Of a stretch of DNA of 55,155 nt, positions 5,234-48,955 are shown piece by piece. The translations under genes and the position numbers were made by a program. Positions within the stretch are counted from its first letter, which is position 1; every line of letters starts with the position of its first letter. Source of the stretch: Fidelibacterota bacterium (GTDB lineage: Bacteria > Fidelibacterota > Marinisomatia > SCGC-AAA003-L08 > GCA-2689995); the NCBI GenBank assembly GCA_002689995.1, contig NZIV01000081.1, forward strand, positions 5,170 through 60,324, written 5' to 3'. The notes under the pieces are model-generated. The model saw only the letters and a program-made list of their open reading frames with translations, was not told the origin of the DNA and did no database searches.

Positions 5234-5977
5234 ATGATGAAATCATTTCAACTAATATTTGTAGTATTATTTAGTTTATTGATTGCAAATAATAGCAATT
5301 TAATTAATCAAATGGATGAACATTCAGATAATTATCGCTACATGAATGCATTAGAAATTGGCCAAAGTTGGATTAAAAATAATACGAATGATGTGGAAGT
5401 TTTATGGCGTTTAGCACAAATTCATTTTGATATTGCTGATCAATCGGAGGATCCTGCCGTTCACAAGGAACATTTTTACCCTGGATTGGGATACGCTAAA
5501 AAAGCATTAGATTTAAATTCAAAATCTGCAAGAGCTAATCATTGGTATGCAGTTTTAATAGGTAAAATTGGTATAATCGAAGGTACTGAACAAAAAATTA
5601 TAAATTCTTACGATGTGAAAAAATATTCTGAGATTGCAATTAGCTTAGATCCAGATTATGATGGTACCTACCATTTAATGGGACGCTGGCATTTTAATAT
5701 AGCAGATTTATCCTGGATTGAAAGATCAATTGCAAGTTGGGTTTATGCAACTCCGCCCGATGGAACTTTTGAAGAGGCAGTGCAATTTTTCGAAAAAGCA
5801 ATTAAAGCTAAAAATGATGAAATAAGACATTATGTATGGCTAGGTAATTCATATTATGAATTGAGTGATTATAAAAATGCTGAAAAAGCTTGGAGAGATG
5901 CTTTAAAAATTGCTCCAAAATCCGAAAGTGATAAAATCCTAATTAATCAAGCTAAAGAAACTTTAGCAGATTTATAA
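5234..5977 (+). CDS. Exported TPR protein resembling eukaryotic RMDN (regulator of microtubule dynamics) family
   Basis: N-terminal hydrophobic segment (residues 3-19) looks like a signal peptide. The body is tetratricopeptide-like helices. Several segments recall the RMDN/RMD-1 family: ANHWYAVLIGKIG, an IIEGTEQKI stretch, the AISLDPDYDGTYHLMGRWHFNIADLSW region around residues 135-160, ATPPDGTFEEAVQFFEKA near 175, and WLGNSYYEL near 205. The resemblance is from memory of the family, not a search. Start ATG at 5234 follows AGGAG by a suitable spacing; the second ATG at 5237 is an alternative. The stop overlaps the OsmC start as TAATG. Probably a periplasmic scaffold; no enzymatic role visible. 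Confidence 0.7.
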   Translation: MMKSFQLIFVVLFSLLIANNSNLINQMDEHSDNYRYMNALEIGQSWIKNNTNDVEVLWRLAQIHFDIADQSEDPAVHKEHFYPGLGYAKKALDLNSKSARANHWYAVLIGKIGIIEGTEQKIINSYDVKKYSEIAISLDPDYDGTYHLMGRWHFNIADLSWIERSIASWVYATPPDGTFEEAVQFFEKAIKAKNDEIRHYVWLGNSYYELSDYKNAEKAWRDALKIAPKSESDKILINQAKETLADL

Positions 5978-6384
5978 TGAGTGAAATCTCAATTGAGTAT
6001 TTAGGAAATTTAAAAACCAAAGCAGTTCATTCACTTTCAGGGGTTGAACTTATAACAGATGCCCCGCCTGATAATAATGGTGAAGGCAAATCTTTTTCTC
6101 CTACGGATTTACTTGCAACAGCTATTGGTAGTTGTATGCTAACTATTATGGGGATTTCTGCAAATACAAATAACATAGAATTTGATACCGCAAAAATTTA
6201 TGTTGAAAAAGTAATGTCATCAAATCCTAGAAGAATAGGGGAGTTAAATATAAAAATGGAACTACCTAATTCATTAACAGATAAAGAGCGAACAATTCTT
6301 GAACGTGCTGCCAAGCAATGTCCCGTTGCAAAAAGTATCCATCCAGATATAAATGAAAATTTAATTATAAAATACACACTTTAA
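5977..6384 (+). CDS. OsmC/Ohr family protein
   Basis: 135 residues, the normal length for a single OsmC domain, a thiol-dependent hydroperoxide reductase fold acting in the cytoplasm. Both expected cysteines are present, in AIGSCMLTIMG (about residue 53) and QCPVAKSIHP (about 114), and the FSPTDLLATAIGSC segment is characteristic. The family reduces organic hydroperoxides, though the closer YhfA-like subgroup has poorly defined substrates and this protein could belong there. Start codon overlaps the preceding stop (TAATG), so it is the last gene of the envelope operon or translationally coupled to it. Confidence 0.88.
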   Translation: MSEISIEYLGNLKTKAVHSLSGVELITDAPPDNNGEGKSFSPTDLLATAIGSCMLTIMGISANTNNIEFDTAKIYVEKVMSSNPRRIGELNIKMELPNSLTDKERTILERAAKQCPVAKSIHPDINENLIIKYTL

Positions 6385-48202: not shown

Positions 48203-48955
48203 ATGTTTAAGAAAGCTAAAATAATAATTATTTGTTCAGGCTTGTATTTGACTGGAATTGCCTATGCAAATACAGATTTAAATGAAAAGTTAGACAGATT
48301 ATTAGATAATCAGAAAGTAATTTTAACTCGCTTGCAAAAGTTGGAAAAAAATCAAATTGAATTATCTAAAAAAGTAAATTCCAATTCTGGGGCTGCAAAT
48401 AAAAAAAATAATAGACCTCAGGTAGATTATAATAAAGAATATAAAGTACCTGTTGGTAACTCAATTGTATTAGGTAATCCAAACGCAAAAGTTACAATAA
48501 TCAAATGGACAGACTTTCAATGACCTTATTGCGCTAAATCTACCGGTCTGGTAGATGATATTTTGAAGAAATATCCAAAAGATGTTAGAGTAGTGGTGAA
48601 AAACTTTCCTCTTGGTTCACATAAACAAGCAAATAAAGCAGCATTATATTCACTAGCTGCCGGAAGACAAGGAAAGTATAAAGAAATGTTTAATAAAATA
48701 TTTGATAATTGGAGGCAACTTCGTAACAATGAAGATTTACCGATTGAATACGCAAAAGATTTAGGTTTAAATATTGACCAGATTAAATCTGATATCAGTG
48801 ACCCATCATTGCAAAAAATTATTAATGATGAGATGGATCAATTAAAAGGAACTGGAATGAGAATGGCCGTTCCAAAATTTCTGATAAACGGTAAAGAACC
48901 TCAAGGAAGAGATTTGGCTTCTTGGTCAAAAATAATTGATGGTTATCTAAAATAA
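48203..48955 (+). CDS. Predicted selenoprotein: exported DsbA/thioredoxin-fold oxidoreductase with Sec-Pro-Tyr-Cys active site
   Basis: 250 residues if TGA at 48521-48523 is read through as selenocysteine (residue 107). Upstream: signal peptide ending IAYA, a coiled-coil-like helix (LDRLLDNQKVILTRLQKLEKN), then VTIIKWTDFQ. The frame continues unbroken after TGA with PYCAKSTGLVDDILKKYP, VVVKNFPLGSHKQANKAALYSLAAG and the cis-proline loop VPKFLINGKEP before its TAA. In relatives the sequence is TDFQCPYC, so TGA replaces exactly the first active-site cysteine; the second (Cys110) is kept. A hairpin fitting a bacterial SECIS follows. Other genes in the window end at TGA normally. AGGA 8 bases before ATG and TATAAT at 48179-48184 suggest its own expression signals; an intrinsic terminator follows. 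Alternative: a nonsense mutation or sequencing error. Confidence 0.88.
48538..48556 (+). promoter_or_regulatory. Candidate bacterial SECIS element
   Basis: ATCTACC (48538-48544) and GGTAGAT (48550-48556) form a perfect 7-bp stem closed around loop GGTCT. The loop begins 21 bases after the TGA, inside the 16-37 base window usual for bacterial SECIS, and starts with GG as the consensus asks. From memory the E. coli fdhF SECIS apical loop is AGGUCU, almost identical. The bulged U known from fdhF is not seen. It lies within the coding sequence, as bacterial SECIS elements do. Confidence 0.78.

Follow-up and report, generated by a model that had tools for sequence, protein, structure and literature searches.

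The segment 48521-48556 (forward strand) of the window, i.e., of the whole 55,155-nucleotide stretch of DNA analyzed here, comprises an in-frame TGA with the hairpin behind it and is almost certainly a bacterial selenocysteine insertion sequence (SECIS), which would be bound by SelB and direct selenocysteine (Sec) insertion at the UGA of an exported DsbA-like oxidoreductase. A covarying stem, a Cys homologue devoid of the hairpin and Sec machinery in the genome all support the SECIS reading, which had already been put forward in a preliminary description of this DNA; given these observations and the conservation of the TGA itself, the gene very probably encodes a secreted DsbA-like selenoprotein with a UPYC motif, the hairpin being its SECIS. 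In the mechanism envisaged, the ribosome would reach the UGA at 48521, the C-terminal part of the lineage's own SelB would bind the hairpin (positions 18-36, the U of UGA being 1), and SelB would deliver Sec-tRNA-Sec to the UGA in place of RF2 termination, yielding an exported thiol:disulfide oxidoreductase with the active site Sec-Pro-Tyr-Cys.

The gene extends over 48203..48955 (+) and encodes 250 amino acids when the TGA is read as Sec, including a signal peptide, a helical stalk and a DsbA fold (Thioredoxin_4/DSBA). The TGA at 48521..48523 (+) is the sole interruption of this reading frame, and no other in-frame TGA in the window is convincing; the codon provides Sec107 in the redox motif DFQ-U-PYC, whose resolving Cys110 is encoded by TGC at 48530..48532 (+). 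Besides its UxxC motif, the protein exhibits PF13462 (E 3e-23) and PF01323 (E 1e-14) domains, and the AlphaFold model (pLDDT 85.8) displays a long N-terminal helix together with a DsbA fold, the closest known folds being 3gyk, ScsC, BdbD and alpha-DsbA1. A lipobox-like signal peptide can be recognized by inspection in most orthologues. The product is thus probably an exported thiol:disulfide oxidoreductase with Sec in place of the nucleophilic Cys, and may act in the periplasm as an oxidase or an isomerase. The Sec position coincides with the catalytic Cys of Cys homologues, in agreement with the earlier proposal that the TGA occupies the place of a redox cysteine. The nearest of these homologues (L041, from a MAG labelled Zetaproteobacteria, 44% identical) has TGT at the site and encodes SVPLVD with TCTGTTCCCCTTGTTGAT, where, by inspection, the hairpin cannot form. 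Regarding the genomic surroundings, no redox partner was found among the conserved gene neighbours, most neighbours of the orthologues being large secreted repeat proteins, often cadherin- or Ig-like by inspection (flanks L036-L045). A plasmid search returned no match.

The stem is formed by a 5' arm, ATCTACC (48538..48544, +), and a 3' arm, GGTAGAT (48550..48556, +), which pair in Watson-Crick fashion at 7/7 positions without a bulge and enclose the apical loop GGUCU (48545..48549, +) at a spacing of 21 nt from the TGA. The perfect 7-bp stem, the loop, the 21-base distance and all coordinates given in the preliminary description were confirmed, and folding with RNAfold, which it had suggested as a check, returned from 48 nt exactly the 48538-48556 hairpin at -8.8 kcal/mol. 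Published limits for bacterial SECIS (bSECIS) elements are a loop of 3-9 nt, a stem of 4-16 bp, a spacing of 16-37 nt, an energy <= -7.5 and a G within the first two loop positions (PMC13188914). The window hairpin lies within all of them (7 bp, 5 nt, 21 nt, GG, -8.8 kcal/mol), and the view that its distance from the TGA fits known bacterial elements therefore holds. An Rfam scan of the window at gathering thresholds gave no SECIS match.

Taken alone, the hairpin of one sequence is nevertheless weak evidence for a SECIS. Of the 36 hairpins with a 7-bp stem and a 5-nt loop on the two strands of the window, that at 48538-48556 alone has the loop GGTCT. However, 79 of the 2336 TGA triplets of the window (both strands; 3.4%) precede a hairpin that scores as well under bSECIS-like rules, and random synonymous recodings of the same peptide give 7/7 pairs and a GU loop in 4% of cases. 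The argument that a coincidence of stem, loop and distance is unlikely was for these two reasons too strong as drawn from a single sequence. What places the hairpin beyond chance is its conservation across 19 orthologues.

These 19 orthologues are those found when 245 genomes of the phylum were searched, the named relatives being Candidatus Neomarinimicrobiota (SAR406) MAGs. In each, the frame contains a single TGA, always at this codon, and the TGA and the hairpin are kept together in 19/19. It could be supposed that a TGC or TGT had been misread as, or mutated to, TGA in a pseudogene or through a sequencing error, with a hairpin behind it by chance; hairpins of similar quality do follow 3.4% of the window's TGA triplets, and selB in the same assembly carries an apparent indel. 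Such an accident is extremely improbable and was rejected, as the TGA stands at the same codon in 19 separately assembled genomes and the remaining protein is intact and conserved.

The stem, which the preliminary description had expected to be conserved among TGA-containing homologues if it were a SECIS, is indeed conserved, and with compensatory base changes. Among the 18 distinct orthologue sequences, 91.3% of the stem cells are paired, and changes on both sides affect 4 of the 7 stem pairs (13 cells). The observed pairing or covariation score was reached by none of 500 shuffles, which ignore relatedness, and slid registers leave only 26-49% paired. At pair 21-33, a change from T-A to C-G is seen in L015/L016 as well as in L019, i.e., in two genera, and pair 23-31 displays a C-G/U-G/U-A series spread over many genera; pair 20-34 is always C-G in the DsbA-like family. 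Unaided, RNAalifold returned the same helix and, in addition, pairing of the first with the last loop base (A-U, G-U, G-C), which gives a loop of the form R-GU-N-Y, where the G and U at the second and third positions do not vary among the orthologues. The description of the loop as an fdhF-type GGUCU is therefore true of the window copy but not of the family, whose loop is R-G-U-N-Y, mostly AGUUU, GGUCU being the variant of the window copy. In several orthologues one or both of the two outermost pairs do not form, pair 18-36 being unpaired in 8/18, and in some the hairpin is not the minimum-energy fold when the sequence is folded singly.

While Sec insertion itself would then stand, it can also be supposed that the hairpin is a mere by-product of a conserved SxxLVD peptide and that some other element recruits SelB; the encoded peptide is conserved too, and some members lack the outer pairs. 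This is very unlikely, if slightly less so than an accidental TGA. Codons +7 to +10 after the TGA vary in the amino acid encoded, whereas their third bases and the pairing are constant, the Cys homologue has a similar peptide without the hairpin, and the same loop is found at the same distance in an unrelated TGA family. Of the 159 five-codon stretches in the gene, the one with the most conserved third bases is that of codons +5 to +9, overlapping the hairpin. Codon +9, which specifies Leu, Thr or Ala, ends in 19/19 orthologues in the G that closes the loop; none of the other columns in which at least three amino acids occur (153 in all) has an invariant third base. Codon +7 (Thr, Ile or Val) ends in C in 18/19, and codon +8 is either GGT or AGT throughout the orthologues. 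To judge from the aligned genes, it is the RNA rather than the protein that is conserved over the hairpin.

With regard to the decoding apparatus, selA, selB, selC and selD are all found in the genome, selC being a tRNA-Sec with anticodon UCA (65 bits). The selA gene directly precedes selB (L034:6862-8735, G000:C63), which, owing to a difference of one base within a short T run at about L034:7278, is split into two frames in the assembly; this split is likely an assembly error, as selB scores over the family cut-off in 45/60 relatives. The selD gene (L134 about 1530, G000:C68) has its own in-frame TGA, with a 7-bp hairpin, a GGA loop and a spacing of 17 nt. Within the 60-genome set, 16 genomes carry the TGA, and 15 of these have a tRNA-Sec or a selB that scores above the cut-off; the window's own genome is counted here through its tRNA-Sec, and the exception is a genome 58% complete. 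If TGA had been reassigned genome-wide, e.g., to Trp or Gly, a SECIS would be unneeded. Apart from one readable TGA nothing points that way, and the possibility is as remote as that of an accidental TGA: it was rejected, as TGA is in use as an ordinary stop, terminating 5/36 long ORFs of the window, as no other internal TGA is convincing and as the Sec machinery is present.

A covariance model of the window SECIS also matched a second site of the same genome, L138:1501 (G000:C34:61381-61428; 24.6 bits, E 9e-4), in a gene for a secreted thioredoxin-like protein with the motif W-U-PAC. This second family has no Pfam or NCBIfam match. The TGA is present in 13/13 close members, the window's genome included (L147-L159), whose loops, AGUUU or AGUAU, likewise begin 21 nt after it, and more distant paralogues have GGUCC, GGGCC or AGUUU on altered stems; in Cys paralogues the hairpin is absent, as judged by folding. 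Paralogues with TGA are many in the order, some being clustered on one contig (e.g., G008:C13, G005:C44), and one of them, L165, harbors two in-frame TGAs in a redox motif U-DI-U. Pair 20-34 lies six bases before the loop G, as does U17 in fdhF. It is C-G in the DsbA-like family and A.G or otherwise unpaired in several members of the second, and a single SelB therefore presumably tolerates both states. With about an even chance of being right, it can be hypothesized that a single SECIS core, standard for the lineage, serves two or more unrelated selenoprotein families in Neomarinimicrobiota, namely C-RGUNY-G on a stem lacking the bulged U, with the loop always 21 nt after the UGA. On this view their SelB would read mainly the loop GU, and the second family would be a hitherto undescribed one of secreted, thioredoxin-like selenoproteins, present in multiple copies and outside Pfam and NCBIfam.

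If UGA is decoded at this site as proposed, 48203-48955 is one functional selenoprotein gene and not two broken ORFs, and UGA is read as Sec in an uncultured marine lineage. Within its SECIS, selection acts on G and U of the loop, on the C-G that closes it and on the inner part of the stem; with these bases in hand, SelB recognition without a bulged U becomes directly testable.

Among known systems, the SECIS of E. coli fdhF has the same loop as the window copy, GGTCT standing 18 nt after its own TGA, so that the window loop, at 21 nt, is one codon further from the UGA. The family-invariant G and U align with G23 and U24 of fdhF, which are SelB contacts. Unlike the fdhF element, the window stem has no bulged U on its 5' side, as the preliminary description had remarked, none is found in the orthologue consensus, and the family loop is mostly AGUUU. 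The missing bulged U is lineage-wide here, yet unexceptional among bacterial SECIS elements, many of which differ from that of E. coli, the model needing a small loop and a G in the first two positions (PMC13188914). The window hairpin violates nothing in the bSECIS consensus (Zhang and Gladyshev; as in PMC13188914), with which it shares loop size, loop G, spacing, stem and energy as well as an N1-G-U-N-N2 loop in which N1 pairs with N2, the published loop pattern being N1-G-[G/U]-N-N2 (PMC13188914).

Regarding the protein, knowledge of DsbA-like selenoproteins with UxxC goes back to 2005, nine having been reported in the Sargasso Sea survey (PMC1088965) and 63, as "DsbA 1", in the GOS survey (PMC2398784). 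Sec-containing members of UshA-like and OsmC-like families were also found in the latter (PMC2398784); in-frame TGA is absent from the window's UshA-like (820-2691) and OsmC-like (5977-6384) genes. The window protein resembles form 1 of the DsbA-like proteins (PF01323; PMC1088965, PMC2398784) in its DsbA domain, its UxxC motif, its occurrence in marine bacteria and the loop G of its SECIS, but its family is assigned to Neomarinimicrobiota and has an N-terminal helical stalk. The Rcas_1661 thioredoxin-like (seleno)lipoproteins (NF041057) have a related domain (E 9.9e-15) and share the use of Sec; membership of that family was rejected (54.7 bits vs a cut-off of 190). The DsbA/ScsC-type structures (3gyk, Caulobacter and Proteus ScsC, BdbD, alpha-DsbA1) share the fold but have an active-site Cys where the window protein would have Sec. 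Both the DsbA-like UxxC selenoprotein and the bSECIS are thus already known kinds, of which the window gene is a well-supported further case.
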